A stretch of DNA of 53,834 nt. It comes from a virus. The first letter of the stretch is position 1, and the number at the start of each line of letters is the position of its first letter. Where the stretch lies: IMG/VR virus record IMGVR_UViG_3300030104_001062, positions 1-53,834 of that record; one strand, given 5' to 3'. The translations under genes and the position numbers were made by a program. The notes under the pieces were generated by a model, which saw only the letters and a program-made list of their open reading frames with translations, was not told the DNA's origin and did no database searches. This document shows positions 12,158 to 46,912 of this stretch, piece by piece.

Positions 12158-12766
12158 ATGGTAGCACGAGATAGAAGTCTTGAAGAAGAACGAGAGGAAA
12201 TAGCAAGAAGTGTTGTAGATGAGGGTATTCTTGAAACTCCAGACCAGTTAAATGGTCTTTCTTCTATTCCGGGATTTGGTATGACACAACCAAAAGGAAA
12301 ATGGGCATGGGAAAATCCACCACAATTTTCTGATCCTAATGATGCAATAGACGCTATTGTAGAAAAATTTGATGAAGAACCTACAAAATCTAATTTATTA
12401 AAAGTAATTCTTGCAGGGGTATCTGTAGAAGAAATAATTAACACTACAGTTATGAATGGATTTACAGAAGGTAAATTTACTCCAGACGTTGCAGAACTTA
12501 TAAAACCAGCGTTAACTGTAAAACTTTTAACAATGGCTCAAGAGAAAGATGTTCCTGTTCGTATGTTTGTAGATCAAGTAGATTCTGGTGAAATGGAAGA
12601 TGAACAATTATTTAGAATAATGCAGGAAAGAAATCCTACTATGTTTAAAGAATTATCTGAAAAAATAAATGAAGAAATACGAATGGGAACTCAACCTGCT
12701 CCACCATCACCACAACCTAAACCTTCTCCAATAAGTGAAAACAGTTTTTTAAATATAGGTAATTAA
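12158..12766 (+). CDS. Hypothetical helical protein (202 aa)
   Basis: Starts 6 bases after the previous stop. It is acidic, with an Arg/Glu-rich N-terminus (RDRSLEEEREEIARSV), a probable helical middle (IDAIVEKFDEE, IKPALTVKLLTMAQ) and a Pro-rich tail (APPSPQPKPSP). It may be an internal virion or tail-tube protein that accompanies the two giant proteins downstream. I recognise no domain; only synteny supports a structural role. Confidence 0.55.
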   Translation: MVARDRSLEEEREEIARSVVDEGILETPDQLNGLSSIPGFGMTQPKGKWAWENPPQFSDPNDAIDAIVEKFDEEPTKSNLLKVILAGVSVEEIINTTVMNGFTEGKFTPDVAELIKPALTVKLLTMAQEKDVPVRMFVDQVDSGEMEDEQLFRIMQERNPTMFKELSEKINEEIRMGTQPAPPSPQPKPSPISENSFLNIGN

Positions 12767-12768
12767 AT

Positions 12769-15700
12769 ATGTCAGTAAATCCAATAGATGTTTTTACCAT
12801 TTTACTTTCAGGTAAAAAAATAAAAGAATCAAAAGATGCAAAAAAACTTGCAGCAGCAGAGTTAGAATATGATCAGTGGCTAGACAAACAAGAGTATTTG
12901 CAAGACCAAAGAGAAAGTTATGATGCTACAAAAAGAAAAATTAAAATTGAAGATGAAAAAAGAAAACGTATAGACGATTTTAATTTTAAAATGAAAACAA
13001 AGCCTATTGAATCTCAAGTTGAGTTTGGTGTTAAAGCTAGAGAAGAAGGTCTTGGTGGACTTTCTCAAGATAGATTTGGAAATCCTTTGCCTTTTGATGT
13101 ATTTAGTCAACGTGTTAATCAAGCACGAACACAAAAAAAATTACGAGATAAACTTAAATCAGAAAAACAATCTTTTCTTCAAACACAAAACTTAGAACAA
13201 AGTGATCTTGCACTACGAACAGCTACAATCCAAGCTCAGAATAAAGCAGAAGCAACATTTGCTGAACAAGGTTATGGAAATTTAAAAACTGAAGATATGA
13301 GTTTTAACGACTTTGCCATAGCAGTTAAAACTGCTAAAGAAAAAGATGCATTAGCTGCAACCAGTGCTGAAGAAAGACAAAAGGTAATAGAAAAATATGT
13401 AGGTATGGGGTATGGAAATTTTCTAAAAGATGAAAATGGTAATGATCGCTCATATGAAGATTTTATAAAATTAGCCGTAGAACAAGAACAAACAGACATT
13501 CTCAAAAGAAAAAAGCAGCAGTTTACACAAGAAAAAGAAATAAGTGCAAAGTTTGAAACTAAAAAAAGAGAAGCTGTAAGAGAAGAAAGTCTTAGAGAAT
13601 TAGCTTTTAAATATGGAATTAATCCAGATGATGAAATTGCTTACGATGGCACAGATATTTGGAAAGATGATCTTCAGAAAAAACTTCAAGGTATGGAAGA
13701 AAATTTAACTTTTGAAGAAAAGAGCAGTTTAAATTTATTAAATGAAGTAAATAAAACAAATAAACTTAATGAAATAGCATCTACTTTTGAAAAAGTAAAA
13801 AATACTGACTACACTTTGTTTAAAGATATAGAAGGAGTAACACCTTTTGTAATGCCTAAAAAGGTTGCAGGTACAAAAACTTCAGAAACAGATAGACTAA
13901 GGCTTATGGATGCATGGGGATATAAAAATTTTGATAATGTAGCACGAGCTACTAATGGGTTAAAAAATTCTGATATGGTTAGGTTTATACATGAATTTAA
14001 TAACGCTTATCGAAATACACTAACAGAAAAAACTAAAGTAACAGAAAAGGGAATATTTAAACCAACATCTCTTGGGGTATCTTTTCTTTCATCTCATCCG
14101 TATTTTAGACAAATAATAAAAAGACAGCATAACAAAGTCTTTAATATTGGTAACTTAATGAAAGAAGGAGCTTTACTTAAAGCAATAGGATCAAGTCGAG
14201 TTATACCTTCATCTGATGTTGCACAAGTAACTGACCCAAAAACAATGGAAACTGAGAGTGGTATTATAATAAATTGGACAAAGGGAACTCCTGAAGAACA
14301 AAATGCGTATGCTCAAATAATGAATGAACTAGACAAAAATAGAGGTTTTGAAGGAGATGAAGAAGCTCTTTTAATTGCTATGTCGAGTTATGTTGGTACG
14401 AAATTAATTAACGGTAAGCGTGTTCCTGATTTATCTGTACCTAAATTTTATGCATCTATGCTTGACAAAGGTTTTACGATGACTCAAATGAGACAATACG
14501 ATCCTAATCAAAAAACAGATAATGATGGTCTTATTACGTATAATCACAGTCTTACCGAAGAAATAACTAGAACAGCTAATGAAACTTTTTCAAGCCCATT
14601 ACCATTTATTATGGCTTTATCTGTAACTGCTAAAGCTAATGACACAGGACTACTTGGTATTAGTCCTAGTGAATACGCTGAACAACAAGGTGTTAAGCTT
14701 GATGCTTTGTATAAACAAAACTTTGATGCAAATGATTTAATAAACGATGCAGATGCAGCTTTACGTACTCTTACTAATGATGATTTAGAAGAATTAAGAG
14801 AGCTTAATTTAAGAAATGGAATTTTATTACAGAATAATGGGGTTTTTATTGAATCTGATCCAGACCAATCAAGTGAGTTATTTGGTGCTCCATTAAGTAC
14901 CTACGGTACTATTTTTAGTACATTAGGGGATCAGGTTAGTGCTGCTATAAAAACAGGCAAAAATATGGCTGGCATAGAAGATAGCACAATTGGTGGAGCA
15001 ATTATTGCACAGTATGATAAATTAGACGGTAAAAACAGACGTTGGTCATCTTACCAAGATGATGTTAACCCAAAGACAAAGCGAACGTTTTTAGAAGAAG
15101 AAGCTGCAAGAAGGGGCATGGATGTAAATTCTTTTTTAAAGGCAGAAGAACGAGCTAGACAACAAAACATGAAAGACTTAGCTGCAGCTCAAGCAACACT
15201 TAATGATCCAAATGCTAAACAAGATTCAATAGTTGCCGCAAGAAGACAATTTTTTGCTTTTACTATGGCATACAAGCTTGCTTCCTTATTACAGGGAGGA
15301 ACAGGTGGTCGAACAATTTCTGACCAAGACGTACAAAACATGTTTAGAGTGCTATCTCAAGATTCTTTAACAGACTCACGTAAATATGGTGAGTCTATGT
15401 TAAACATAAAAAGAATGGCTAAAAATGCTTTAGAAGTTAACCAGATGGTTCAAATTGGTTTAGGTATAGGTAGTAATGGGGAAACTCCAAACAGACCTTT
15501 GTTTGTTGCAGCACAACATTATAAAGCTTTTCATGCAGGAACATTTACACCAACGTATAACAATGTTGTAAATTTTATTAGGTATGGAAATCCAACAGAA
15601 AAAGGTTTCAATTCGGAACAAAACGCTGTAGATGCATCAGGTATAAACAAAACACAACAATTTATGAAAAGACGAATCTACCCAGATAATGTACCTTCAA

Positions 15701-15855
15701 AAGCTGTAGATAAATTGTTTAATGAACCAACTGAACAGATGCTTCAATTTTACATACAAAAATATGGAGAAGATAAAGTTCCAAAGGGATTTACTGTAAT
15801 AAATCCTCCAACACCAGAAGAACAAATTAACCAAGCAGCAGGGATGTCTTTGTAA
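12769..15855 (+). CDS. Giant internal virion protein candidate (1028 aa)
   Basis: Lies 2 bases after the previous gene and overlaps the next by one base (TAATG). The N-terminal 110 residues are highly charged and helical (Lys/Glu-rich). Two related segments around residues 160-230 contain GYGN (EQGYGNLKTEDMSFNDFAIA and MGYGNFLKDENGNDRSYEDF), an internal duplication. The remainder is helical without visible catalytic motifs. Proteins above 1,000 aa at this position in podovirus genomes are normally ejection proteins comparable in role to T7 gp15 and gp16; that is inference from length and order. Confidence 0.6.
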   Translation: MSVNPIDVFTILLSGKKIKESKDAKKLAAAELEYDQWLDKQEYLQDQRESYDATKRKIKIEDEKRKRIDDFNFKMKTKPIESQVEFGVKAREEGLGGLSQDRFGNPLPFDVFSQRVNQARTQKKLRDKLKSEKQSFLQTQNLEQSDLALRTATIQAQNKAEATFAEQGYGNLKTEDMSFNDFAIAVKTAKEKDALAATSAEERQKVIEKYVGMGYGNFLKDENGNDRSYEDFIKLAVEQEQTDILKRKKQQFTQEKEISAKFETKKREAVREESLRELAFKYGINPDDEIAYDGTDIWKDDLQKKLQGMEENLTFEEKSSLNLLNEVNKTNKLNEIASTFEKVKNTDYTLFKDIEGVTPFVMPKKVAGTKTSETDRLRLMDAWGYKNFDNVARATNGLKNSDMVRFIHEFNNAYRNTLTEKTKVTEKGIFKPTSLGVSFLSSHPYFRQIIKRQHNKVFNIGNLMKEGALLKAIGSSRVIPSSDVAQVTDPKTMETESGIIINWTKGTPEEQNAYAQIMNELDKNRGFEGDEEALLIAMSSYVGTKLINGKRVPDLSVPKFYASMLDKGFTMTQMRQYDPNQKTDNDGLITYNHSLTEEITRTANETFSSPLPFIMALSVTAKANDTGLLGISPSEYAEQQGVKLDALYKQNFDANDLINDADAALRTLTNDDLEELRELNLRNGILLQNNGVFIESDPDQSSELFGAPLSTYGTIFSTLGDQVSAAIKTGKNMAGIEDSTIGGAIIAQYDKLDGKNRRWSSYQDDVNPKTKRTFLEEEAARRGMDVNSFLKAEERARQQNMKDLAAAQATLNDPNAKQDSIVAARRQFFAFTMAYKLASLLQGGTGGRTISDQDVQNMFRVLSQDSLTDSRKYGESMLNIKRMAKNALEVNQMVQIGLGIGSNGETPNRPLFVAAQHYKAFHAGTFTPTYNNVVNFIRYGNPTEKGFNSEQNAVDASGINKTQQFMKRRIYPDNVPSKAVDKLFNEPTEQMLQFYIQKYGEDKVPKGFTVINPPTPEEQINQAAGMSL

Positions 15856-18800
15856 TGGCAGATAACATAACTAACCCATTTGACGAATTTGATGAAAAAG
15901 ATACAGTTGTTACTCGTAACCCTTTTGACAATCTTGATTCTGAACAAAAATCATCTGTTGCAGACAAATTAGAACAAAAAATTAAAAAGTCAACTCTTAA
16001 AAGAGAAGAGTCTTTACTTAAAGAACCTATAGAAAAAATAGCTGGAACTGCTAAGAGTACAGTTTTTGATGCTACTGGGGATGTATACACTAAAGTAGCT
16101 CCTCAGTCTTTGCAGTATAAAACTGCAATAGAATATGATGAAAGAGGGCAACCTATTGTTAAAGAAGGTAGAGTAATTCCTGAAGTTTCTATATTTGAAG
16201 AGCCCACAGTTAAACAATATTTTAATGATCCTAAAAAAGAAAAAGAATTAAACAACGTTTTAAAAGGATATGTTACAGCATCAGGAACAGCTATATATTG
16301 GGATGAAAAACAAAAAAAAGAATTTCCAACAGCAAGAGAATTTTTAAAAGATGCTGAACAATTAAGTCCACGCTCATTACTTTTTGCTGAACCTTTTGAA
16401 GCTTATGATTTAGATTATACTGATGTAATAAAAAAGTATACTGAACTTCCAGAAGATAAAAAGGGATTTCAACTTAGCCGTTTACAGTTTTCAGATTATA
16501 AACAAGAACCTTTTACTATTGGGTCAATGCTTCCGGGAACTGAAAGATTTGGTGGAGCGTTAGTTAAAGATACTGTTGATTACGTTAAAGATACTATGGG
16601 GGTAAAAGACACTCAAACATTAGCTGTCATAGCTAAGATGACAGAGAGTGGTGAAATTGCAGGAAGAAGAGCTATATCAGGATTGTATACAACTGTTAAA
16701 TTTTTAACAGCAGATGCAGCAGTTTTTATGGCTAGAACAACACAAAGTCTTATGAATTATAATGAAACTAGACAATTTGTACCCTACAGTTCTGACATAG
16801 AAAGAAAAATATTTAATGACAGATGGCTTGCTGGATCAGCAGCAGATTTTAGAAAAAGATTGTTAGTGGCAGGTATATCTCCTATATATGCAACACAAGA
16901 GTTTGCAGAAAAACTATTGGCTTTTAGTCCGACTATTGCTGACAGAGGACTTAAAGTTGCTATTGATGTAAAGGGTTTTACTGCAGCACTTGGAATGAAA
17001 ATGACATCTAGTGCCAACGCAGCCTTTATTGATTTTACAAATTTTGTAAAGGCAAGACCTAAGATGTTTAAAATGGATGCTGATGGAAAGATGGTAAAGG
17101 GCACATATGAAGAAGCTATAACAGCATATAAGAAACAAAGAGGAGAATACGCTGATAATTTAATGGGTAGGTTTTTAGATAATTTACAAACCGATAAATT
17201 GGTAAGAGGATTTGAACTTAATCTTGCAAAGCTACCAGTTGAAAAAAGAAAAATAGTTCAATATAATAGAAAACTATTAGCAGAACTTACACAAGAAAGA
17301 GACAGACTTAAAAATTTAGAAAAAATAAATACATACAATAAAAGATATGGACTAGAGGGCAAGCTTCCTGCTAACTACGATAAAGATATAATTGATATTA
17401 ACAGAGCAATAGCTCAACAAAGGATTGCTACATCTGTTGCAGAAAGCACAAGTGGCACTGCTAAATGGGTCAGAGAATTAAATTCTGCAGATGCTGGTTT
17501 TGTTTTATACGGAACATCACTAGGTCAACTTAATCAAAATTTAAATGGAGATCCTTTATTTGGAGAGTTTGCAGGGTATACATATGCAATGGGAGAACTC
17601 TTATCAAAAGGAACTCGATTTGAAAAGTTTCCATTTATAGTAGCAGGAAGTGTAAAAGCTGGAGCTAGAGCAGTTGAAAACTTAACGTTAAAAACACTTG
17701 AGTTATATACTGGCAAAGGAACATTTTTAGATCCAAAACTTACTGCAAAAGGTAGTGAAGATATAATTGATCTTGCTAACACAGTTAAAACATTAAGTCC
17801 TCAAGCTCAGACATATGTAGAAGAACGTGTAGCTGGATTTAAAATTGTTATGGATGATTTAATTAGCAAAGATGTTAACCCAGATGTATTAAAGCCTACA
17901 CTAGCAAAACTATCTGGTTTAGCAGCCGTAGAAGCATTTGAAATGGGTGTAAGATCTGAAATGTATGCTTCAAGAACTTTTGATTCAGATGTTATAGCTT
18001 CATTGCAGGATGCAACAAATACGAAAAAAGAAATAGTAAATGAGTTAAAAAAATTATCTATGGGTTTTACAGATAATATGCCTGAAGCAGGAATGGCAGA
18101 TTTAGTTACTAAATTTAGAGTTAATATAAGTGATGCTCTTAAAAGTATAGAAAAAGATATAAAAGAAAGTGATATCCTATATAAAGAATATAAAAACTTA
18201 CAATTAAACTTTTTAGCCGATGAATATGTGTCTCCTGTAAAAGGAGAAGATTCAGCAAGAATAGTAAAAAAAATAAATGACATAACGGATGGAGAACCTT
18301 TACCTATATCTATGTTAGATACTGTTACAGTTATGACAAAAGATAAAAAAACAAGGTTAATTCAAGAATTAAATACTGAAGCCATTAGAAGTGAAACAGA
18401 AAAACTTACAACAAAAATACAATCATCAATAAAATTAAATAAAAATATAGAATTTAAAGAAAATGACGATGTAACTAGAGCCGTTACTGAAAGAGTGCTA
18501 GAATCCCAAAGAGAAATTTTACAAATTAATGGATCAAGGGGATATAAAATTATGGATAACGATCCTAAATTGGGTTTAGCAAAAACAGATGCCACTAATT
18601 TATTTAATAGTGTATTTGATGACGTAACAAGCATATCAGGAAAAGCTAGAAAATTTAATGAAGCAACAATGAAAGAATCAGATTCGTCTGGTTTAATTAA
18701 AATATTTGATGCTGCTGCAAATAAAATGTTACTTAACAAACTAACTCCAGAAGAAATAGCTGATCTTAGAGGAGCAATGAAAGCAGATGGATATGACAGG

Positions 18801-20696
18801 TTTAGTCCTGCTTTTATGTTACACTACAGTAATGAAATACAAAAAACTGCTGGCAACCCAGTTCTTCCTTTTAATTTAGGGTTTGAAGAATCAGCCCAAA
18901 TTAAATCTGCTTTAACACGAATACGAAATTCATATGAGTTTCAAGCACAGAATGGAAATACAGCAGCTGGAGCTAGAGCGAGAGCATACGCTGAGTATAC
19001 AAATGCGGCCAGAAATCTTTTTAAAAATTTTAAAAGTCCAAAAGGAATAACTTTAACAGGGCTTGATGAGAAGTTAGCTAAAGCTGATGCAATTTACAAA
19101 ACAGAGTATGCAGATAAATTTTTTGATAATGACCTTGCAAAAAACTTAACGTATGAAAGAAAATTTGGATACAGAGATCCAGTTAAAGAAAATGAATTTA
19201 TATCACAACCAACAACAGCTCATCCAGAAGCAAAAAAATATGTAAAGAATAGTAATACTTGGTTTAACCTCAACAAATTATCTACTGACTCAGATGCATC
19301 TTCAAATTTAAATGCTGATATTTTAAGAATGTTTGGTAAAAGAAATGAAAAAGGTCAAAATGTAATATCGGCAGAAGATAACCCAGATTTAGTAGCTCTT
19401 AGTAAGCATTTAACAACAGAGTGGATTTTAAAACAACTTACAAAACGTAACGTAAATGGTAAGCTTAGTGATGTTGCAGTCAACACTCCTGAATTTATGG
19501 CTAAATTAGAGAACATACAAAGGGCTTTTGCTACAGGCGATGGCAAATATTTGTTTTCAGTTGATGAGTTTTTTGATATAAATGGTCCATTTGGTTTTCA
19601 TGCTGCACGACAAAATCAAAAAGAAATAGACTCTATAGCAACTGATAGTGAAGTTATTTTAAAAAATGCATTTGATAAAAGTAAAGCAAATAAAGACCAC
19701 TTAGCACGTATAGATAAAATAAATGAAAATCAAGCTTTAATATTCAATGCTAAAAAAGAATGGAAATTAGCTAGTGATATATACGATGATCTAGTCATAA
19801 TGAGAAACACAGATATAGGGGAATTTAAAAAAGCTTTTATAGCTAATAATAAAGGAGTAAAAGCCGAAGAGGTTGATGGTGCTTTACGTTATATAATAGC
19901 AAAACATATAAATGAAGAAGTCTTTCAAGTATCAAAAGAATTAGAGGTATTTCCAGCAGATCAGTTTGGTCAATTAGCAAGACAAGTACAAGATGTTGAT
20001 TTTGAAAAACTTAGAGAAATGATAACTAAAGATGAAAGAGGTCCTGCATTAAAAGAAATATTAGGAGATAATCATTACAATGCCCTATTAAGCATTAGCC
20101 GATATATGGAATTAACAAAGATGCGACAGGATAAAATTCAAGTAATGGGTATCCCACGATCGTTATCTGTTGAAAGTTGGATTAGTAGAATATACAGTAT
20201 TAATCGTGGTGTTGTTTCTCCTAAATATGTTGCAACAGAAGCAGCATTGCAACAAGCAAGGAAGAAAAATATAAGTACGCTTGAAGCTATTATTGCAGAT
20301 CCAGATGCTGCAGAACTTTTTGCAAAAATTATATTAGAGCAAAAACCATTAGAAGAACAATTAGGAAAAAGATTGTTTGGAGCAATAGCTTTTCATTTTA
20401 GTTACTCAGCTTCTAGAGTTGGGTGGAAAGATTATATTATAGAGGGTGGAGATGCACAATTACAAAAAGTAAAATACCAAGCAGCTCAAGTTATTCCAGA
20501 TGCTATTCAGCCTGAATTTTTAACACCTACCAATGCTATGGATAAACAGATGAAAGAACTACAGTTTCTTAAAACTAGAAATCCTAAAAAGCTTTGGGGA
20601 AAAGGAACACCATTTAGTAATTATGCTGCATGGAAAAAAGCACAACCAGAATACAGAACTTCAACATATTTAAATAATAAACAATATACAAATTAA
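15855..20696 (+). CDS. Giant internal virion / ejection protein candidate (1613 aa)
   Basis: The largest gene in the window, starting in a TAATG overlap. The N-terminus has two short NPFD repeats (NPFDEFDEKD, NPFDNLDSEQ). It is mostly helical and Lys/Glu-rich, with several weakly hydrophobic stretches (about 255-300, and 575-605 around FAGYTYAMGELL). I could find neither a lytic transglycosylase motif nor a protease signature. By size and place at the end of the tail module it parallels T7 gp16, which forms the ejectosome channel, but that comparison rests on position only. The next gene follows after 11 bases. Confidence 0.6.
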   Translation: MADNITNPFDEFDEKDTVVTRNPFDNLDSEQKSSVADKLEQKIKKSTLKREESLLKEPIEKIAGTAKSTVFDATGDVYTKVAPQSLQYKTAIEYDERGQPIVKEGRVIPEVSIFEEPTVKQYFNDPKKEKELNNVLKGYVTASGTAIYWDEKQKKEFPTAREFLKDAEQLSPRSLLFAEPFEAYDLDYTDVIKKYTELPEDKKGFQLSRLQFSDYKQEPFTIGSMLPGTERFGGALVKDTVDYVKDTMGVKDTQTLAVIAKMTESGEIAGRRAISGLYTTVKFLTADAAVFMARTTQSLMNYNETRQFVPYSSDIERKIFNDRWLAGSAADFRKRLLVAGISPIYATQEFAEKLLAFSPTIADRGLKVAIDVKGFTAALGMKMTSSANAAFIDFTNFVKARPKMFKMDADGKMVKGTYEEAITAYKKQRGEYADNLMGRFLDNLQTDKLVRGFELNLAKLPVEKRKIVQYNRKLLAELTQERDRLKNLEKINTYNKRYGLEGKLPANYDKDIIDINRAIAQQRIATSVAESTSGTAKWVRELNSADAGFVLYGTSLGQLNQNLNGDPLFGEFAGYTYAMGELLSKGTRFEKFPFIVAGSVKAGARAVENLTLKTLELYTGKGTFLDPKLTAKGSEDIIDLANTVKTLSPQAQTYVEERVAGFKIVMDDLISKDVNPDVLKPTLAKLSGLAAVEAFEMGVRSEMYASRTFDSDVIASLQDATNTKKEIVNELKKLSMGFTDNMPEAGMADLVTKFRVNISDALKSIEKDIKESDILYKEYKNLQLNFLADEYVSPVKGEDSARIVKKINDITDGEPLPISMLDTVTVMTKDKKTRLIQELNTEAIRSETEKLTTKIQSSIKLNKNIEFKENDDVTRAVTERVLESQREILQINGSRGYKIMDNDPKLGLAKTDATNLFNSVFDDVTSISGKARKFNEATMKESDSSGLIKIFDAAANKMLLNKLTPEEIADLRGAMKADGYDRFSPAFMLHYSNEIQKTAGNPVLPFNLGFEESAQIKSALTRIRNSYEFQAQNGNTAAGARARAYAEYTNAARNLFKNFKSPKGITLTGLDEKLAKADAIYKTEYADKFFDNDLAKNLTYERKFGYRDPVKENEFISQPTTAHPEAKKYVKNSNTWFNLNKLSTDSDASSNLNADILRMFGKRNEKGQNVISAEDNPDLVALSKHLTTEWILKQLTKRNVNGKLSDVAVNTPEFMAKLENIQRAFATGDGKYLFSVDEFFDINGPFGFHAARQNQKEIDSIATDSEVILKNAFDKSKANKDHLARIDKINENQALIFNAKKEWKLASDIYDDLVIMRNTDIGEFKKAFIANNKGVKAEEVDGALRYIIAKHINEEVFQVSKELEVFPADQFGQLARQVQDVDFEKLREMITKDERGPALKEILGDNHYNALLSISRYMELTKMRQDKIQVMGIPRSLSVESWISRIYSINRGVVSPKYVATEAALQQARKKNISTLEAIIADPDAAELFAKIILEQKPLEEQLGKRLFGAIAFHFSYSASRVGWKDYIIEGGDAQLQKVKYQAAQVIPDAIQPEFLTPTNAMDKQMKELQFLKTRNPKKLWGKGTPFSNYAAWKKAQPEYRTSTYLNNKQYTN

Positions 20697-37632: not shown

Positions 37633-37657
37633 TATAATATAATTTCCTCCCAAACTG

Positions 37658-38109: not shown

Positions 38110-38115
38110 ATCTGC

Positions 38116-38144
38116 ATTATACCGTCTGAAATCAATTTCGTCAA
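38116..38144 (-). promoter_or_regulatory. Leftward sRNA promoter
   Basis: Minus strand: TTGACG (38144-38139), 17-base spacer, perfect TATAAT (38121-38116). It is the best -10 box seen in the window. Confidence 0.65.
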
Positions 38145-38150
38145 CCCCCC

Positions 38151-38179
38151 TTGACAAATTTTTTTTAAATTAGTATTAT
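38151..38179 (+). promoter_or_regulatory. Late rightward promoter
   Basis: Perfect TTGACA (38151-38156), 17-base spacer rich in T and A, TATTAT (38174-38179); a second TATTAT lies at 38187-38192. It probably drives the terminase-to-tail operon. Its -35 is only 6 bases (six Cs) from the leftward promoter's -35, so the two compete for RNA polymerase. Confidence 0.75.
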
Positions 38180-38277
38180 AAGTATGTATTATAGGTGCAA
38201 GATGTCACATTGGCACACGATATAGCTTAGTTTGCATCCAGTTCGTAGACTTACGCACCGTAATAACAGAGATTACA

Positions 38278-38679
38278 ATGAATTTATTACCAGAAAAACG
38301 CAAATCTACTAAGATTTCTGAAAAAGAAGAGCTTTTCTTACAAAACTTGTTTGAGAATGGCGGCCAAGTAGTCGCTGCAGCTGAAAATGCTGGGTACACG
38401 AAGGGTTCTGCAGGATATTTGCGAAGCAAATTAGCCGATGAGATCATAACACGGTCAAAGAACCTACTCGCTAGTGCTTCTGTAAAAGCTACCAACAGGT
38501 TAATTAGTATGATCGACACCCCACAAGTCGAAAGAGGGGATGATGTGCGTTTAAAGGCTGCTGAATCGCTGTTAAACAGAGTTGGGCTGGGTAGAGAGGA
38601 AACACATAACCATAATGTACAGGCATTACATGGAGTAGTATTGCTCCCACCTAAAAAAGGAATAGAAGTAAGTGGCTAA
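38278..38679 (+). CDS. terS: Small terminase subunit (133 aa)
   Basis: Recognises phage DNA for packaging. The N-terminal helix-turn-helix region (EEKFLQN-like EELFLQNLFENGGQVVAAAENAGYTKGSAGYL) fits the DNA-binding domain of small terminases. The middle helices (SVKATNRLISMID) and a segment with RLKAAESLLNRVGL are usual for oligomerising TerS proteins. Directly followed by the large subunit with an 8-base overlap. First gene of the late operon, about 90 bases behind the promoter. The ribosome site is weak. Confidence 0.75.
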   Translation: MNLLPEKRKSTKISEKEELFLQNLFENGGQVVAAAENAGYTKGSAGYLRSKLADEIITRSKNLLASASVKATNRLISMIDTPQVERGDDVRLKAAESLLNRVGLGREETHNHNVQALHGVVLLPPKKGIEVSG

Positions 38680-40339
38680 TAAACGTGGTCGCCCAAGAAA
38701 AGATCCTAATGCTCCGAAGGAATCTTATAACATTTCATCATTAGAACGAGCTAAAAGAGCAACTCGTAAAAAACTTGCAGCTGAAAGGCGACAAGCTAAC
38801 AAGGCTGCAAAGAAAGTACAGAAACACAGACAAAATGCTAAACGTATTGAAAACACTGCCAAGAACCTGTCTAACGGAACTTCAAAAGTTGTGGACTTGG
38901 GTGACGAACTCAATTCGTTACAACCTGTATCAGATCTGGTCGATGATCAAGAGATTATATTTAAACCTAATAATGGTCCTCAAGAAGAATTTCTATCTTC
39001 CTCTGAAGAAGATGTGTTATACGGTGGGGCTGCAGGAGGGGGCAAGTCTTTCGCTTTGCTTGTTGATCCTCTTCGTTATTGCCATAACCCTAATCATCGT
39101 GGTCTTCTCCTAAGAAGAACTCTTGATGAATTAACAGAACTAATAGACAAATCAAGACAACTATATACTAAAGCTTTTCCAAAAGCACACTTTAGAGAAT
39201 CAAAATCCACGTGGGTGTTCCCTTCTGGGGCAACGATGTGGTTTACTTATCTAGACAGAGACAAAGATGTTACTCGATTTCAGGGACAGGCTTTTAACTG
39301 GATAGGAATAGACGAAATAACACAATACCCCACACCATACGTGTGGGATTACTTGCGTTCAAGACTACGTACAACAGATGACGAACTAAGACCAAACATG
39401 TCTATGCGTTGTACTGGAAACCCCGGTGGAGTTGGAGGGTGGTGGATTAAGAAGATGTACATTGATCCACACGAATATAATAAACCTTTTCCAGCCACAG
39501 ATATAGAAACAAGAGAGCAGTTACTATACCCAGAGGGTCACGAGAAAGCAAGGCAACCGTTGTTCTACCGAAAGTTTATTCCTGCACGGTTGACCGATAA
39601 TCCCTATCTGATGCAAGATGGCAGATACGAAGCCATGCTCAGATCGCTCCCAGAAGTTGAACGGAAGAGACTTCTTGAAGGGGATTGGGATGTCGCAGAG
39701 GGAGCGGCCTTCCCAGAGTTTTCTAAACAGAAGCACGTTGTCGAGCCATTTGAAATGCCAACTAACTGGCCCAGAATACGTGCAGCGGATTATGGATACG
39801 CAAGTCCATCCTGTGTATTGTGGGGGGCTATAGATTGGGACAACAACATTTGGATCTATAAAGAACTCTACGTAAAGCAACACACAGCAGAGCAACTTGC
39901 TGACAAAATACTGGAGATGGAACAACTTGAACCCACACCACATTACTCTGTACTTGACTCATCGTGTTGGAACAAGACAGGGTTTGGTCCTTCAATTGCA
40001 GAGACTATGATGCGTTTGGGTGTGAGGTGGACACCATCCGATAGAAACAGGTTACAGGGTAAAATGGAAATACATAGACGATTAGCAGATAACCCATTGA
40101 CAAAGTTACCCAGAATCCGTATATTTAATACATGTAGTAACACAGTTAGACAACTTGCAGGAATACCGTTGTCGAAAAGTAATTCAGAAGATGTAGATAC
40201 AAAAGCAGAAGACCACGCATATGATGCGTTGCGTTATCTAGTAATGACTAGAACCAGTGGATATGCTTCAATACATAAAAGTCTACAGGGAATAAAAGAT
40301 CAAACATACCAACCAGTAAATAGTACATTTGGATATTAA
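38672..40339 (+). CDS. terL: Large terminase subunit (555 aa)
   Basis: ATP-driven packaging motor and headful or site nuclease. GTG start at 38672. Walker A YGGAAGGGKS (about 117-126), Walker B WIGIDEITQ with the catalytic Glu, and an RNase H-type nuclease domain beginning ADYGYASPSCVLWG with further acidic residues (YSVLDSSC, EDHAYDALRYL). An unusual N-terminal extension of about 90 residues is Lys/Arg-rich and starts with KRGRPRKDP, an AT-hook-like motif. It shares one base with the recombinase-like gene (TAATG). Confidence 0.92.
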   Translation: MANKRGRPRKDPNAPKESYNISSLERAKRATRKKLAAERRQANKAAKKVQKHRQNAKRIENTAKNLSNGTSKVVDLGDELNSLQPVSDLVDDQEIIFKPNNGPQEEFLSSSEEDVLYGGAAGGGKSFALLVDPLRYCHNPNHRGLLLRRTLDELTELIDKSRQLYTKAFPKAHFRESKSTWVFPSGATMWFTYLDRDKDVTRFQGQAFNWIGIDEITQYPTPYVWDYLRSRLRTTDDELRPNMSMRCTGNPGGVGGWWIKKMYIDPHEYNKPFPATDIETREQLLYPEGHEKARQPLFYRKFIPARLTDNPYLMQDGRYEAMLRSLPEVERKRLLEGDWDVAEGAAFPEFSKQKHVVEPFEMPTNWPRIRAADYGYASPSCVLWGAIDWDNNIWIYKELYVKQHTAEQLADKILEMEQLEPTPHYSVLDSSCWNKTGFGPSIAETMMRLGVRWTPSDRNRLQGKMEIHRRLADNPLTKLPRIRIFNTCSNTVRQLAGIPLSKSNSEDVDTKAEDHAYDALRYLVMTRTSGYASIHKSLQGIKDQTYQPVNSTFGY

Positions 40340-42213
40340 TGACTAAAGCTAGATTAAAAAAAGTTGATAATTTTTTAGAATTTCAAGAAAGGCTGTTTCC
40401 TGATGGAAATATTCCAACTCGTGAAGAAATTAAAAATCTTGTGCAAAGTGGGGATACCTCTGTAAGAACACATATTTTAAATAAAATGTATAGAGATGGA
40501 GTTCCAACAGATCCATTTCTTTTACTTGATGAAAGAGCAAAAGATTTTGCAAATAAATTTAATGATGCATTTGGTAAAAATACATTACAAACAGCTAAAA
40601 ACATTACAGGTGTTGTAAAAGATGTAGATAATGTACTTAAAAAAGGATTTACATTAGAAGATGATTTTATAACTGTCAAAGAAGCAGGAACATTTCCTGA
40701 AGCTGATAGAAAAGCTTTTGAAAACAGATATACTAGCACTGCAGATTTACCAAAAGGTGATGATATGCCTGTGCCAACTATAAAAGGTTCTAAAAAACTT
40801 GCAAGTGGTAAAGTTCCTAAAGGGTTATTAAAAACAGTATTGGAAGCAGTAGGAAGTATACCAGATGAAGTATTACGTGATGCCGCAATAGCAAGTTTAA
40901 TTGGGTACAGAGGAGCAGATCTTGTAGGATCTATGACAAATGAGGTCAATCCTTTAAGTGGAAATTTTGTAGCTTCTGAAGAATATCCTGCTAGACCATA
41001 TTACGATCCAAAAACAAATAGCTTAATAGCTCCAGATGTAGATATAGGAGCAGGTAGAAAAGGCAAAGATCCTCTTAAAGAGCTAGGACCTTTAATGCAA
41101 TCTATATTTGATAGAAGATTTGCAAATGCCGTAGATGGAGAATTATTTCCTGATATTGGAACAAAAGATATTTCAAATGCTTTAAATAAATATGTATTTC
41201 CAAAAATACCAAAAGAAGTATTAGCACATTTAAAGACACAACCAAGTGGCTACTCAGCTATGCGTAAAATATTTGCATCAGCCGTAGCGAATGATTTGAA
41301 CAAACCAGAAATTGCAGCTCAGTTGATGGGGCATGGAACAGGTGAATTAGGTGGGCAAAGTGTTTTAAATAAATTTTATGCTACGATTATTGATGAGGGA
41401 GGACTTCAAGCTAGAACAGATACGTTATTGCAACTTGAAAAGTTTATGGCTGATGCTTTAGGTGTAACGACTTCTGGAGAATTAGCAACTAGATTAAATT
41501 TAAAACTTGATAACCCTGATCTAAATATAACATATCCAGAGTTTGATATGGATAAACCTATACAAGGTCCTGAAGGTCAAAAGATACAGTTGAGCGAAGA
41601 AGAATTACAAGCTCAAGAACAAGAAAGAATTAAAGCTTCTCAAAAAAGAACACAGGATCAAGCTGTAGCTACTGCTGAAGGTGTTCAAAAAGAAGTGGGT
41701 ATATACAAAGGTATATCCAAAGAAGACATTGATGAAACAACTTCAAAGAAAGCGTTAGCTAAATTTAGTGAAAAAGAAAAAACAGCCGAGCTATTTAAAC
41801 AAAAAAAATTAGATGACAAAAAAACTAAACGAGATAATCTTTTTAAAAAGTTAGCAGAAATTTCAAAAAGAGATGGAATTAAAAGTGTAGCAGGATTAAT
41901 TACTGCAGGGACTGCTACAAAGATTGCGGCTGGAGTTTTGTCTGGTGGAACTGCTGCTCTACCTTTAGCGGCCGAAGCTGCGGCAGAAGTTGTACTTAGT
42001 CCTACTCCTACTGGAGAAAAAGCCATAGATCCTAAAATTGGATTAGAGTATACACAACCTGAAAGACCACCATCTGATTTTATGACTGAAGACGAAATTT
42101 TAAGTAGTTCAAGAATGGCTAAAGGGCAGTTTGAACCAGACATATTTCAACAAGCTAGATTAGATAGAAAAGCACAAAAAGATAAAATACAAAGTTTTTT
42201 AACAACCAACTAA
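40339..42213 (+). CDS. Late protein with tyrosine-recombinase-like domain (624 aa)
   Basis: Between terL and portal. Residues about 165-360 follow the catalytic domain of tyrosine recombinases: IGYRGADLVG (Arg191), a hairpin GRKGKDP (Lys241/243), ELFPDIGTKDISNALN, then GYSAMRKIFASAVAND (Arg309; the usual His is Ser306), AAQLMGHG (His332) and LNKFYATI (Tyr347). Arg309-His332 is 23 residues, as in XerD (Arg247-His270). C-terminal to it come a charged coiled-coil region (415-510) and an Ala/Gly-rich hydrophobic stretch (about 515-552, GLITAGTATKIAAGVLSGG), which looks like a membrane-active segment of an ejected protein. It may be an integrase, a resolvase or a virion-carried relic; activity is unproven. 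Confidence 0.7.
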   Translation: MTKARLKKVDNFLEFQERLFPDGNIPTREEIKNLVQSGDTSVRTHILNKMYRDGVPTDPFLLLDERAKDFANKFNDAFGKNTLQTAKNITGVVKDVDNVLKKGFTLEDDFITVKEAGTFPEADRKAFENRYTSTADLPKGDDMPVPTIKGSKKLASGKVPKGLLKTVLEAVGSIPDEVLRDAAIASLIGYRGADLVGSMTNEVNPLSGNFVASEEYPARPYYDPKTNSLIAPDVDIGAGRKGKDPLKELGPLMQSIFDRRFANAVDGELFPDIGTKDISNALNKYVFPKIPKEVLAHLKTQPSGYSAMRKIFASAVANDLNKPEIAAQLMGHGTGELGGQSVLNKFYATIIDEGGLQARTDTLLQLEKFMADALGVTTSGELATRLNLKLDNPDLNITYPEFDMDKPIQGPEGQKIQLSEEELQAQEQERIKASQKRTQDQAVATAEGVQKEVGIYKGISKEDIDETTSKKALAKFSEKEKTAELFKQKKLDDKKTKRDNLFKKLAEISKRDGIKSVAGLITAGTATKIAAGVLSGGTAALPLAAEAAAEVVLSPTPTGEKAIDPKIGLEYTQPERPPSDFMTEDEILSSSRMAKGQFEPDIFQQARLDRKAQKDKIQSFLTTN

Positions 42214-42223
42214 GGAGGGCGAC

Positions 42224-42442
42224 ATGCCACAAGGTAACTACAACTATGACGCAGGGTACATCATGAACTCAGATAAAACATCTGTTGATGACCAAATGGG
42301 AGCAAACCAATTAAATCGTGAAGGATTGCAGTTTGATACAAAAGTAACACAAGATGTCTTTACTCAAGATGCTCCAAAGCAACAGTCAAAGCCGACAGTT
42401 GAAGCATCATTGTTTGCAATGGCAGAACAACGAGATTACTAA
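42224..42442 (+). CDS. Hypothetical virion-module protein (72 aa)
   Basis: Strong ribosome site AAGGAGG 6 bases upstream. Polar, Asn/Gln/Asp-rich (NYNYDAGYIMNSDKTSVDD), ending EASLFAMAEQRDY. No motif is recognised. It stands directly before the portal gene, so a head role is likely. Strong translation signals suggest it is abundant. Confidence 0.6.
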   Translation: MPQGNYNYDAGYIMNSDKTSVDDQMGANQLNREGLQFDTKVTQDVFTQDAPKQQSKPTVEASLFAMAEQRDY

Positions 42443-42448: not shown

Positions 42449-44572
42449 ATGTCTGATAACTTTCTTGAACCAGCCGATGATGAGCAGGTAGTTGTTGCAA
42501 CCCCAGAGGATCAACTACCCGGTCTTGTTGGATATATAAAAGAAAAATTTGATGGGGCTGAGAATGGGAGATACACCCATGAACAGCGTTGGCTGACCTC
42601 GTTCAAGAACTTTAGGGGTATCTATGATTCAAGTACAACCTATAGAGAGTCAGAGCGATCACAAGTCTTTATAAAAATTACAAAGACAAAAGTGCTGGCT
42701 GCCTATGGTCAAATTGTAGATATACTTTTTGGGTCTAAGAAGTTTCCAATTACAATTGAGCCTACTCCTGTTCCTGAAGGAATAGCAGAGTTTGCACATC
42801 AAAAGACACCTCTTGATGATTCACAAGCTCCTCAAGATCCTTTTGGATATCAAGGAGATGGAAGAGAAGTTCTTCCCGGTGCAATGGAAGCTACACCTAA
42901 AAATAACGTATTAGGGGGTCTTGCTGATAAGTATGAAGGAATACCTCTTGTTGAGGGTGCTTCTAAGATTGGTGAAGTGCAAATATCTCCTGCAATGGAA
43001 TCAGCGTTAGTTCTTGAAAAACAAATACAGGATCAGTTGCTTGATACTCGTGCTGTTAACACAATGAGAGCTGCCATCTTTGAAATGGCTATGTTAGGTA
43101 CAGGTGTTGTAAAAGGACCATTTAATTTCTATAAGCGTGTTCATAAGTGGACAAAAGGCGAAGATGGGGAAAAGAAATACACACCTTACGAAAAAACTGT
43201 TCCACGTATGGAGCATGTGTCCTGTTGGGATTTCTTTCCAGATCCTACAGCAACATCTATTGATGATGCTGAATATGTAATACAAAGACATAGACTCAAT
43301 AAGTCTCAGTTTCGTGCATTAATTAATCTTCCGTTCTTTGATGCAACAGCAATTGAAAACTGTGTAGCTAAAGGTCCTAACTATGAAGACAAGTATTACG
43401 AAGATACAATACGAGAAGACGAGACAGAAGCAAACTACCGAGAAAATCGTTTTGAAGTATTAGAATACTGGGGGGTTTTAGATGCTCAACTTGCTAGAGC
43501 AACAGGTCTTGATGTAGCTAACTCAATGTCTGATCTTGAACAAGTACAGATAAATGCTTGGATCTGTAATGGCATGGTATTACGATGTGTATTAAATCCA
43601 TTTACACCTGCACGAATACCTTATCAAGTTGTTCCATACGAAGTAAATCCTTACCAGATGTTTGGTGTTGGAGTTGCAGAAAACATGGAAGATTCCCAGC
43701 TATTGATGAATGGTCACGTAAGAATGGCTATTGATAACTTAGCACTAGCAGGTAATCTTGTATTTGATGTAGATGAAGCAAGTTTAGTTCCCGGACAAAA
43801 CATGGATGTGTTTCCGGGCAAGATATTTAGAAGACAATCTGGGGTAACAGGAACAGCAATCAATGGATTAAAGTTTCCAAACACAGCACCAGAAAATTTA
43901 CAGATGTATCAAATTAGTAGGCAGTTAGCTGACGAACAAACTGGTATACCTTCTATACTACACGGACAAACAGGTGTAACAGGAACAGGAAGAACAGCTT
44001 CTGGGCTATCTATGCTGTTAGGTGGAGCAAATTTATCCATGAAAACAGTTATAAAAAACATTGATGACTATATGTTAAAGCCTGTTGGTGAAGCATACTT
44101 TCAATGGAACATGCAGTTTAATGAGTCTACCCCTGAGATACAAGGCGATTTAGAAATAAAGCCCGGTGGTACAAATTCAATAATGCAGAAAGAAGTACGA
44201 AGTCAAAGATTGACAGCGTTACTACAAACTGTAGCAAACCCAATGTTAGCACCATTTATTAAGTTGCCAAACCTAATGAGAGAACTAGCTATTGCACAGG
44301 ATATTGATCCTGATAGTCTAGTAAATAATTTAAATGAAGCAAAACTATATGCAGAACTATTAAGAGGATTACAAAATGCTCAACAAGAAGCAAGCCAGCA
44401 GTCTCAGCCCACTGGTCAACAACCAACAGGCATGGGTGGCACTGGAGGAACACCTTCAGCACCTAACAGAAATGACGGTGCAAGCGTTGATGGCAGCCCC
44501 ACTGGAGTCGGAGCTACGCCAGCTGCAGGGGAAGCTTCGTTTACTGGAAACCCTCAAGGGGTTGAAGAATGA
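42449..44572 (+). CDS. Portal protein (707 aa)
   Basis: Forms the dodecameric head vertex through which DNA passes. Follows terminase and carries podovirus portal features: an N-terminal segment KFDGAENGRYTHEQRWLTS with YRESERSQVFIKITKTKV, an internal part FEMAMLGTGVVKGPF, and a C-terminal stretch GRTASGLSMLLGGANLSMK with helix IDDYMLKPVGEAYF. The last 60 residues are Gln/Gly/Thr-rich and disordered. Length is in the range of HMO-2011-type portals by memory. Overlapping frames in the 3' end are not genes. Confidence 0.85.
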   Translation: MSDNFLEPADDEQVVVATPEDQLPGLVGYIKEKFDGAENGRYTHEQRWLTSFKNFRGIYDSSTTYRESERSQVFIKITKTKVLAAYGQIVDILFGSKKFPITIEPTPVPEGIAEFAHQKTPLDDSQAPQDPFGYQGDGREVLPGAMEATPKNNVLGGLADKYEGIPLVEGASKIGEVQISPAMESALVLEKQIQDQLLDTRAVNTMRAAIFEMAMLGTGVVKGPFNFYKRVHKWTKGEDGEKKYTPYEKTVPRMEHVSCWDFFPDPTATSIDDAEYVIQRHRLNKSQFRALINLPFFDATAIENCVAKGPNYEDKYYEDTIREDETEANYRENRFEVLEYWGVLDAQLARATGLDVANSMSDLEQVQINAWICNGMVLRCVLNPFTPARIPYQVVPYEVNPYQMFGVGVAENMEDSQLLMNGHVRMAIDNLALAGNLVFDVDEASLVPGQNMDVFPGKIFRRQSGVTGTAINGLKFPNTAPENLQMYQISRQLADEQTGIPSILHGQTGVTGTGRTASGLSMLLGGANLSMKTVIKNIDDYMLKPVGEAYFQWNMQFNESTPEIQGDLEIKPGGTNSIMQKEVRSQRLTALLQTVANPMLAPFIKLPNLMRELAIAQDIDPDSLVNNLNEAKLYAELLRGLQNAQQEASQQSQPTGQQPTGMGGTGGTPSAPNRNDGASVDGSPTGVGATPAAGEASFTGNPQGVEE

Positions 44573-44605: not shown

Positions 44606-46912
44606 ATGACAACTCTTATTCCACAAGGATTTTTTCCATTAACAGATACAGGTAACAGGTATAGTTTCTTTCATCAATTTTTTAAAGGATTGTATCCTGA
44701 AATGTATAAAGATGTGTTAAAAAATTTAGGACAAGATGTAGAATCAGAAGAAGATCCCTCACCTCCAATTCCAGTATCAACAGGTGCTGCATTACAGGAT
44801 GGCAGAGATGATGACCCATATGACAAAGCTAGACAAGATGCTTTAAGATTACAATGGATGATGGATGGCAAGTATAAAATACAAGGACAAGCTGTAACAT
44901 TAAATGTTCCTGAGTTTCCAGCAGGGCAAAAAGGACAGTCTGCTTCTATTAGTAAATTTGAAACAGGAATTGCATCTGATCCAAATATATTAAGTAGTTT
45001 ATTTGGAGGAATGACAGAAAAAGCACACGCAGCCAATATTCAAAAACTTATGGATGAAGGTGTTGGTGGAGCAGGATTAGTATGGAGTCCAACAGGGGGT
45101 TTTTCTAGTGTTTCATTAAGTGTAAACAAACGTAACTTGTTGGGAAAAGAAGTAACAACAAAAAACTTAGTGGGTAATGTTCCTGATGTGTTTATCTATG
45201 GGGATACAGTATATAATATGCAAAATCCACTTTCTAAAAAAGCATTTATAACAGCTTTTGAAAATTCATCACAAAAACGTGCTACTGAAATTAAAAAGGT
45301 AGAAAGTAAAAGACAGGGGTTAGTTAAAACTTTTGGATACTATGGGGATGACAGAGAAACTGTAGAAGGTTCTGAATATGCTACTGGTAAAGCTTCTTTT
45401 GAAAAAATGAAAAAAGAAAGAGGGTTTAGTGCTGATGCTCAATATTTTGGATCAGAAGGAATGGGGGATGCATATGAAAGAACTCCAGAAGGTGTACAAT
45501 CTGCTGCAGGGTTAACTGCTGAACAAAAACAAAGTGCATCAGATGCGGCACGTGATGACAGAGAGCGAGAAAGAGCAGAAAATCAAGCTAAACAGGATGC
45601 AGCAAATATTTCTGATAAACAAGCTTCAGAATTTGCATCAGGAACACAATCAGACGTTGACCAAATGGCAAAAGATTTTGGGTATAACACTGGTGGTTTT
45701 ATAGGTGGAATGAACCCAGATCAAGTAACAGACGCACAAACTGTAGCTGACGATTACCCAATAGATTCTGATGATGGCGACTTTATGATTAATGCCGCAG
45801 CAATTGAAAGAGATCCACAGATGTTTAATGAAATTATATCTCAAGGATTGCAGAAGGCACGAGAAAAAGGAGTTGACGTAGGAGACATTTCAGGAGTTGG
45901 TATGGATGGGTCTGGGGATGTACTAGCATCAAAAGGAGAGTTCCTTGTTAAAAAACCTCTTGCTGAAACCATAGGGTATGATGCGTTAAATCAATTTAAT
46001 GATCAAGGCAAACCAGAGGTTGACAGACGAGTTGCAGCATCAGGTGGATTTTTAGATGGATACGCAAATGGTGGAGATATATCATTACCTGTATCAAAAC
46101 CAAATCGTGATCCAGATATTGTTAGATTTTATAATAGCATAAAAGATAGATTTAAAGGATCAGAGGAAGCTAGAAAAAAGACAGATGAAATTATTAGTAA
46201 CTTTCCTGAAGAAAAATTATTAGCTTTACTGTCTATTACTGAAGCGAGTAAACTAGGAGATAGAGGTATGGAAGCTGTAATGCACGTTGTTAATAACCGT
46301 GCAAAATCAGATTATAGAAACTTTGGTAAATTAAATTCTGTTGCAGATGTCTTGTTGCAAAAAACTGGTAAAGGAGCATATGAATTTACTGGTTTAGAAA
46401 TTAGTGGTAGAGATGAAAAGTATGATCTTAGAGTACAATTATCAGAATTGTTATCAAGAGCAGGTGGGTTAAAAGAATTTGATAGACAAGTAGAAGTTGC
46501 AAAAAAAGTATTAGCTGGAACAAAAAGAGATTTTACAAAAGGATCTTTATTCTTTTGGAATCCAGACACCTCAGATATAAGCCCTGTTGGACTTAGTAAA
46601 GAAGAATTTGAAGAAAAAGTGCAAGCAGGAGAATATTTAATAACAGAGAACATTGAAGGTTCTACAGGTAGACACGAGCATATTCGCCCTGCTGATATAC
46701 CTGAAACAGAATACCCAGAAGAATCTTTTTTAAGATCTGTAGAAACAAAAAAACGAGCGTCTAATCAATTAAAAATAGCAGAAGATAATAAGATGTCTCG
46801 ATTTACTGAGAGATTAGAACCTCTTCCTGAACCTGAAGGGTTGTCCCAAAAAACATTTTTAGGGAACATACTTAGTCAGGGAGTTAAACCTCAAATGGGA
46901 AGAAGGAACTAA
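44606..46912 (+). CDS. Virion protein with SleB-like cell-wall hydrolase domain (768 aa)
   Basis: Starts behind AAAGGATAACGT. The N-terminal two thirds are polar and helical with Gly/Asp-rich linkers. Residues about 495-660 resemble the SleB/CwlJ hydrolase fold: LLSITEASKLGDRGMEAVMHVVNNR gives the catalytic Glu546 and the V-x-N-N-R signature, followed by VADVLLQKTGKGAYEF and an alternating helical end. Such a domain in a structural protein would open peptidoglycan during entry. It is distinct from the lysozyme at 52072. The tail ends in a Pro-rich stretch. Confidence 0.6.
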   Translation: MTTLIPQGFFPLTDTGNRYSFFHQFFKGLYPEMYKDVLKNLGQDVESEEDPSPPIPVSTGAALQDGRDDDPYDKARQDALRLQWMMDGKYKIQGQAVTLNVPEFPAGQKGQSASISKFETGIASDPNILSSLFGGMTEKAHAANIQKLMDEGVGGAGLVWSPTGGFSSVSLSVNKRNLLGKEVTTKNLVGNVPDVFIYGDTVYNMQNPLSKKAFITAFENSSQKRATEIKKVESKRQGLVKTFGYYGDDRETVEGSEYATGKASFEKMKKERGFSADAQYFGSEGMGDAYERTPEGVQSAAGLTAEQKQSASDAARDDRERERAENQAKQDAANISDKQASEFASGTQSDVDQMAKDFGYNTGGFIGGMNPDQVTDAQTVADDYPIDSDDGDFMINAAAIERDPQMFNEIISQGLQKAREKGVDVGDISGVGMDGSGDVLASKGEFLVKKPLAETIGYDALNQFNDQGKPEVDRRVAASGGFLDGYANGGDISLPVSKPNRDPDIVRFYNSIKDRFKGSEEARKKTDEIISNFPEEKLLALLSITEASKLGDRGMEAVMHVVNNRAKSDYRNFGKLNSVADVLLQKTGKGAYEFTGLEISGRDEKYDLRVQLSELLSRAGGLKEFDRQVEVAKKVLAGTKRDFTKGSLFFWNPDTSDISPVGLSKEEFEEKVQAGEYLITENIEGSTGRHEHIRPADIPETEYPEESFLRSVETKKRASNQLKIAEDNKMSRFTERLEPLPEPEGLSQKTFLGNILSQGVKPQMGRRN

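Follow-up and report, generated by a model that had tools for sequence, protein, structure and literature searches.

The window analysed here, a 53,834-nt and apparently complete virus genome (IMG/VR record IMGVR_UViG_3300030104_001062), encodes between its large terminase and portal genes a protein, X, with a domain strongly supported as a tyrosine recombinase. All members of an uncultivated clade of bacterial viruses carry X. What the computation shows is homology to recombinases, invariance of catalytic residues, selection against change, a fixed slot, hypervariability and a shared tail motif. An earlier note, made from the letters of this DNA, had proposed the recombinase domain; the clade-wide constancy of X, its hypervariability and the tail motif that it has in common with other proteins go beyond that note. 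Taken as a whole, our best explanation is an active, late, virion-loaded recombinase delivered with the DNA, its target specificity exchanged between strains, and we give it about an even chance of being correct.

A fixed slot between terminase and portal

The genes around X and their putative promoter are as follows.

38151..38179, + strand: sigma-70-like promoter, TTGACA-17-TATTAT (11/12 consensus match, conserved in 4 genomes)
38672..40339, + strand: large terminase subunit, TerL (phrog_979, 4.8e-63)
40339..42213, + strand: X, a 624-aa tyrosine-recombinase-like protein (ORF)
42224..42442, + strand: small protein of 72 aa between X and portal, conserved in six relatives (60-90% identity)
42449..44572, + strand: portal protein (phrog_332, 1.1e-71; phrog_1216 portal, 1.4e-31; portal in HMO-2011-type phages)
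44606..46912, + strand: 768-aa protein with a cell-wall hydrolase domain (PF07486, 9.7e-8)

The X ORF lies between TerL and portal, as the earlier note had read the order of genes; the 72-aa ORF stands just before the portal gene. The start of X overlaps the stop of TerL by one base (TAATG). X is not accompanied by an attachment site, as that note had remarked; the gene abuts its neighbours and leaves no room for an adjacent attP. The promoter sits in a conserved non-coding stretch 5' of TerS and likely drives TerS-TerL-X-portal; promoter-like sites as a class were not enriched.

A large ORF (530-790 aa) occupied the TerL-portal slot in all 107 related IMG/VR contigs that carry both flanking genes, and these ORFs form one family. 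When the search was started from X itself, 76/76 loci showed the same slot. A search of the window turned up no tyrosine recombinase other than X, nor was a second recombinase found in the X-bearing genomes searched. The virus shows features of HMO-2011-type phages, namely homologues of their TerL, portal, P22-like coat and RNR, and a DnaJ-like zinc motif in the DNA polymerase (CGTCEGEG ... CKNC).

Tyrosine recombinase domain of X

The two N-terminal regions of X and the catalytic residues, with their conservation among 109 divergent X proteins, are listed below.

40339..40743, + strand: N-terminal helical region, aa 1-135 (all-helical in the full-length AF2 model, with block pLDDT mostly 70-95)
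40744..41514, + strand: catalytic domain, aa 136-392 (AF2 domain model, PDB ranking, hhalign to canonical recombinases)
40909..40911, + strand: Arg I, R191 (YRG); 109/109
41059..41061, + strand: beta-hairpin Lys, K241 (GRKGK); Lys at most 4 residues from this column in 109/109
41263..41265, + strand: Arg II, R309; Arg in 109/109
41332..41334, + strand: box-III His, H332 (LMGHG); His 52, Arg 55, Ser 2 of 109
41377..41379, + strand: nucleophile Tyr, Y347 (NKFYA); 109/109

The window protein (P0001) alone gave no match in Pfam, PHROGs, PDB or the phage collection, and homologues were therefore reached via the flanking genes. A profile of 105 X proteins matched XerA-like (1.8e-9), Int (2.4e-8) and XerD (1e-5) entries of the PDB, and one homologue (L005) passed Pfam Phage_integrase PF00589 (29.5 vs 27.1 bits) and matched a PHROG integrase at 1.2e-14. 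Restricted to the P0001 clade, the profile matched nothing but coiled coils in the PDB. Aligned with hhalign, this clade scored 82% (1e-5) against canonical recombinases and the other X proteins 97% (5.5e-11); the P0001 domain matched the other X proteins at 98.4% (6e-15), and controls gave 0.1-0.2%.

The full-length AlphaFold model of X had a pLDDT of 66, below 50 in the active-site region, with weak PDB matches led by lambda Int, and was replaced by a model of the domain (pLDDT 83.5, pTM 0.83). The top 10 Foldseek matches of the domain model in the PDB were all recombinase folds, with XerA, lambda Int, FLP, P2 Int and TelA among the top matches (best E 0.21, TM about 0.3-0.5). Structure prediction, which the earlier note had suggested as a check, thus ranked recombinase folds first, at weak E-values (>0.2), and did not refute the assignment. 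The helices at aa 1-135 of the full-length model are possibly the core-binding domain.

R191, K241/K243, R309, H332 and Y347 are all where the earlier note had placed them, as are its LFP, AMRKIFAS, LMGHG and NKFYA blocks. R309 and H332 are 23 residues apart, the distance it had reported, and H332 and Y347 are 15 apart; His-to-Tyr spacing is usually shorter in XerD and lambda Int, at 9. Among the 109 X proteins the only invariant internal columns were R191, R309 and Y347 (the start Met was present in 106/109). The pattern of catalytic residues is far beyond chance. The same three columns were invariant in a separately made 51-sequence domain alignment. In a fast 105-sequence alignment R191 and R309 were invariant, and the Tyr, shifted by one residue in register, was almost so. 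The proposed conservation of Arg, His and Tyr in homologues therefore stood for both Arg and the Tyr, and for H332 in only 52 of the 109, which is no refutation. The box-II His (HxxR) is absent, being S306 in the window, as the note had seen, and Ser, Tyr, Thr, Lys or others in relatives. This His is a common but not universal feature of tyrosine recombinases, and protelomerases also vary there, so we do not take its loss to exclude X from the superfamily. At box III, where the superfamily has His or Trp, the window protein has H332.

Catalytic-domain dN/dS was 0.02-0.08 in six of the eight X pairs with informative dS, and 0.19 and 0.26 in the other two. Purifying selection was strongest on the catalytic domain in most pairs, while the tail drifts. 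It is on the invariant Arg/Arg/Tyr, the family profile matches, the fold ranking and this selection that the recombinase assignment is strongly supported.

C-terminal extension, tail motif and divergence of X

The extension of X and the proteins compared with it comprise the following features.

41596..41871, + strand: charged long-helix (coiled-coil-like) region, aa 420-511 (model helices, charge fraction)
41884..41994, + strand: Ala/Gly-rich hydrophobic stretch, aa 516-552 (hydropathy peak 1.37; SVAGLITAGTATKIAAGVL)
42190..42210, + strand: C-terminal tail QSFLTTN, a proposed docking tag with the motif [GSN]F[LIM] (motif counts in the X family)
12158..12766, + strand: p202, a core-module protein ending NSFLNIGN, tail motif as in X (motif in homologues)
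12769..20696, + strand: 1028-aa and 1613-aa proteins after p202 (ORFs)

The coiled coil and Ala/Gly-rich hydrophobic C-terminus described in the earlier note were both recovered, the former as long helices at 420-453 and 466-511 of the full-length model, and a C-terminal hydrophobic peak above 1.0 was present in 81% of X homologues. The motif [GSN]F[LIM] occurred in the last 32 aa of 75/97 X proteins against 4 expected, and in 64/69 of the set found from X itself. The first tail scan used [GS]F[LIMV], by which 73/107 X proteins carried the motif against 4.6 expected. The motif was widened after the p202 family had been seen, so the p202 counts, 20/21 homologues against 0.5 expected, are partly post hoc; in the 21st (L232) the motif precedes an extension. 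It was also found in 19/72 wall-hydrolase-type proteins against 2.4 expected, the window's 768-aa copy being without it, and it was absent from portal (0/71), TerL (0/56) and 1028-type proteins (0/21), with 1/21 in the 1613-type. The size and order of the 1028-aa and 1613-aa proteins are reminiscent of the T7 internal core.

From its occurrence in X and in a core-module protein we infer that the tail is a virion-docking tag, and X is on that ground probably packaged and delivered with the DNA. Genomic position alone places p202 in the particle, and with a motif of three residues the common partner of X and p202 could be a host or non-virion protein. A literature search, its coverage leaving out most subscription journals, found no virion-packaged phage tyrosine recombinase.

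X is hypervariable, whereas TerL and portal are not: near-identical genomes with TerL at 99% can have X at 18%. X alleles thus appear to be exchanged between near-identical genomes, and divergence alone underlies the reading of this as exchange of specificity. The type of X was coupled to the type of the neighbouring hydrolase, an effect that is real but tiny (partial r 0.10).

Candidate functions and related systems

We propose that X is a catalytically active tyrosine recombinase which, in an uncultivated clade of HMO-2011-type podoviruses, has become fixed in the late operon for packaging and portal. X would be made late with TerL and portal, as the TAATG overlap and the promoter before TerS suggest. 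Through its charged helix, Ala/Gly-rich hydrophobic stretch and [GSN]F[LIM] peptide, X would share with p202 a binding partner in the virion. Loaded into the particle, it would enter the cell with the DNA, and there cut and rejoin DNA at a specific site by Arg-Lys-Arg-(His)-Tyr chemistry. The target may most plausibly be the incoming genome, or genome and host, with a specificity that would be swapped rapidly between strains. That the whole clade has such a packaged recombinase, loaded by a tail peptide common to core proteins, acting site-specifically as the DNA enters and diversifying by exchange of alleles at one fixed place in the packaging operon, is a tentative claim, to which we give somewhat less than an even chance.

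X might instead be a late intracellular recombinase that stays out of the particle and acts during packaging, its tail tethering it to the assembly of portal and motor. It could, for example, resolve branched concatemers or multimers at or near the motor; a concatemer resolvase was among the functions offered in the earlier note. Its single slot between TerL and portal and its overlap with TerL would fit, and the tail motif could bind the prohead instead of loading cargo. However, the genome already encodes a junction resolvase, a T7-type endonuclease I, relatives without X package without it, and a housekeeping resolvase should not be hypervariable while TerL and portal are not; we consider this role unlikely. 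An ordinary lysogeny integrase in an odd place, integrating at a host attB and changing its attachment site when X is swapped, is distinctly unlikely, although the genome has no tyrosine recombinase besides X, the hypervariability of X is of a specificity type, and a tyrosine integrase occurs in lysogenic relatives such as CRP-3 (PMC9038755). No TerL of the clade was found in 84,980 cellular genomes, from which the right host strains may be absent, while the same search found at least 598 viral contigs; a plasmid search with TerL gave distant terminases only. There was no repressor-like gene among the ORFs tested, tRNA and Rfam searches revealed no tRNA and no tRNA-like attP, and the tightly packed late operon has no place for an attP beside X. 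The structural use of an exapted recombinase fold in the virion neck or core, which the earlier note had offered beside packing in the virion, is very improbable. Position in the structural module, the lost box-II His and a box-III His that is Arg in about half of the homologues favour it, but it is precisely Arg I, Arg II and Tyr that do not vary, and the Lys is kept too. Strong purifying selection on the catalytic domain in most close pairs, with the tail drifting, and catalytic residues that never change speak against a dead or exapted fold; packing in the virion gained indirect though specific support from the C-terminal motif that X has in common with a core-module protein.

Inverted-repeat and dyad searches and genome comparison revealed no DNA target site of X. 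A dyad at 37657-37680 was rejected as a terminator, and a 15-8-15 inverted repeat at 25919 lies inside a gene and within shuffled background; the latter is conserved in a relative (G001) although that genome has a different X. A virion-delivered recombinase directed at host or competitor DNA, for example that of a host plasmid, a prophage or another virus in the same cell, with an arms race driving its diversification, would agree with the docking motif, the allele exchange between near-identical genomes and the catalytic conservation. Given that these searches found no target and that the coupling to hydrolase type is weak, it is improbable, and we know of no precedent for it. A protelomerase making hairpin telomeres is scarcely credible. 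TelN and TelK, at about 630 aa, are similar to X in total size, TelA is among the structural matches, and the box-II His varies there too; against this, no telomere-like long palindrome rose above shuffled background (the best inverted repeats lay within it), the Pfam search of X gave no protelomerase family match, and the contigs are circularly closed, with starts at various genes.

A recombinase carried by every member of the clade is missed by single-sequence annotation, and a genome without a lysogeny gene should no longer be taken for one without a recombinase. If X is packaged, a DNA-rearranging enzyme would be injected with the phage genome, and the common C-terminal tail would be a simple, testable rule for proteins that enter the particle. 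Even if X acts only in the cell, a recombinase fixed in its slot yet swapped raises the question of what these viruses recombine.

X has the order and context of Arg I, Lys, Arg II, box-III His and Tyr of XerA/XerD and lambda Int (PF00589), which are its best structural matches (weak by E-value) and to which profiles relate its domain. It differs from them in the missing box-II His, longer insertions that put 50 residues between Arg I and Lys and 15 between His and Tyr, a C-terminal extension of ~280 residues and its place in a late packaging/portal operon. In the isolates HMO-2011, HTVC033P and the CRP phages, TerL and portal are not separated by a large ORF, and the p202 homologue of HMO-2011-type isolates has GLM[AS] near its C-terminus, not [GSN]F[LIM]. 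X is distinct from the separate integrase of lysogenic relatives. Roseobacter phage CRP-3, which is lysogenic, has such an integrase, gp02, a tyrosine recombinase from the same viral supergroup as X; gp02 has 357 aa without the extension and precedes the replication module, and TerL and portal are directly adjacent in CRP-3 (PMC9038755).

Like P1 Cre, X could possibly circularise an incoming, terminally redundant genome, but no lox-like site was found here. Cre is a small protein without a virion tail, and its gene lies apart from those for packaging. The N4 RNA polymerase is a phage enzyme carried in the virion, and encapsulins load cargo by C-terminal peptides. Although enzymes and peptides differ and homology is not claimed, the principle proposed for X would be the same, a short peptide at the terminus guiding a catalytic cargo into a shell of the HK97 fold.

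A conserved gene between terminase and portal

38672-40339 (+), large terminase subunit (TerL)
40339-42213 (+), X, a 624-residue tyrosine-recombinase-like protein
42449-44572 (+), portal protein
44606-46912 (+), hydrolase gene after portal, PF07486 domain

The ORF, residues and sequence blocks that an earlier note had given for X were all confirmed in the sequence. X starts on the final base of the TerL stop codon (TAATG). When 80 TerL relatives and 80 portal relatives were taken from IMG/VR, the TerL-portal gap held a large ORF of about 530-790 amino acids at 107 of 107 loci with both genes, which include overlapping pieces of one contig and thus fewer independent viruses than 107. Short overlapping ORFs were called in some of the gaps as well. 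A single family joins 124 of 125 gap ORFs. A search started from X gave 76 new loci, with TerL before and portal after in 60 and a contig end cutting 16; X was in no other genomic position at any of the 76. A well-conserved 640-base non-coding stretch before TerS (37632-38278) holds a terminator and a promoter match (TTGACA-17-TATTAT), and may contain a packaging site.

Recombinase identity and exchange of X

The window's X (P0001) used alone as query had no matches in Pfam, PHROGs, PDB or the phage collection. By homology, X is a tyrosine recombinase: a family profile of 105 members matched XerA-like 4a8e (1.8e-9), Int 6en0 (2.4e-8) and XerD (1e-5) over the catalytic domain. One X homologue passed the PF00589 cut-off and matched a PHROG integrase at 1.2e-14. 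In profile-profile comparison the P0001 clade scored 98.4% with other X, and these groups scored 82% and 97%, respectively, with canonical recombinases, active-site residues being aligned; controls (TerL, portal, reversed) gave 0.1-0.2%. With the domain alone, the small P0001 set matched canonical recombinases weakly (7%, E 0.005), so for P0001 the link is best made through its relatives. The top-ranked folds for the catalytic-domain model (pLDDT 83.5) were XerA, lambda Int, FLP, P2 Int and TelA, all at E 0.2 or worse, a ranking that is supportive and is not proof of the fold.

R191, R309 and Y347 are the only invariant columns among 109 full-length X, in alignments that span 10-20% identity and are imperfect outside the catalytic boxes. 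Close to K241 there is a Lys in every sequence. The box-II His is lost in all X and the box-III His is replaced by Arg in about half, so the chemistry may be modified. X is probably catalytically active: dN/dS of the catalytic domain was 0.02-0.08 in most close pairs (0.19 and 0.26 in two; P0001/L001 is too alike to judge), and 0.2-0.6 in the C-terminal part.

X is hypervariable: median identity was 77.5% for TerL, 74.7% for portal and 22% for X; loci L007 and L008 share 99%, 96% and 18%, respectively. The catalytic part and the tail can be exchanged independently: P0001 and L001 have identical catalytic parts and 63% identical tails, while L063 and L150 have 59% and 97%.

The C-terminal tail and proposed delivery

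12158-12766 (+), p202, adjoining two very large core-module proteins

[GSN]F[LIM] was present at the end of 75 of 97 X (4 by shuffling), typically 7 residues from the terminus; this short motif was broadened once after inspection of sequences. The same tail ends 20/21 p202 relatives (0.5 expected) and 19/72 proteins encoded after portal (2.4 expected). It was found in portal 0/71, TerL 0/56, the two large core proteins 0/21 and 1/21, and all genes of RNR loci, p202 included, 52/1079 (29 expected). Some tails are near-identical (EPNFLTMK in X, EENFMTMK in p202 relatives). We read the tail as a putative docking peptide for a common partner, presumably in the virion, given the core proteins beside p202 and the hydrolase gene following portal.

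On the best reading, X would be an active recombinase that is produced late, is taken into the particle through its tail and enters the cell with DNA. That X serves lysogeny is disfavoured, since the clade's TerL was absent from 84,980 genomes scanned, no repressor was found among the ORFs tested and no tRNA in the window, and there was no second integrase beside X. Published work classes several HMO-2011-type subgroups as obligately lytic on the ground that they showed no lysogeny gene (PMC9038755).

Viral group and comparison with isolates

24370-24867 (-), T7-type endonuclease I (PF05367, 2.7e-40)
26864-28432 and 28365-28973 (-), overlapping ORFs, apparently DNA polymerase
49429-50058, 2OG-Fe(II) oxygenase-like gene following coat (PHROG 61)

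Bases 1-98 of the 53,834-base virus record recur at 53,735-53,832, so the map is circular and probably represents a complete genome. A 905-residue tail ORF probably runs on across the junction; if so, imperfect 31-base direct repeats of period 39 (53638-53707) may be part of it. Relative to a related genome (G001), TerL and portal are 94-96% and replication genes 87-97% identical, and most tail/core proteins (133-20696) are unrelated or 25-34% identical, by sequence a whole-module swap. The oxygenase-like gene is 98% identical in G001 and was not detected in five other relatives.

The phage collection searched has no isolate of this clade. The best matches of TerL and portal are in HMO-2011-type podoviruses (47-55% identity; hosts SAR116, SAR11, Roseobacter), and a DnaJ-like zinc motif, described in the literature as a hallmark of the group (PMC9038755), is present in the polymerase. 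This enzyme appears to be divided between a polymerase ORF with a TTG start and a 3'-5' exonuclease ORF that overlaps it, whereas the HMO-2011 polymerase is a single ORF; a frameshift, a sequencing error or a true split would account for this. Unlike the window's clade, isolates HTVC033P, HTVC115P, HTVC103P, CRP-3 and HMO-2011 have no large, X-like TerL-portal ORF. In X-less isolates, GLM[AS] takes the place of [GSN]F[LIM] close to the C-terminus of the p202 homologue. The small protein before portal ends in LFAMAEQRDY, and the equivalently placed HTVC033P gp78 and gp79 have the endings FRMAEERDY and LFTMADEKDY, which makes this a second conserved C-terminal motif in the gap (42224-42442 in the window; 40218-40736 in L281).
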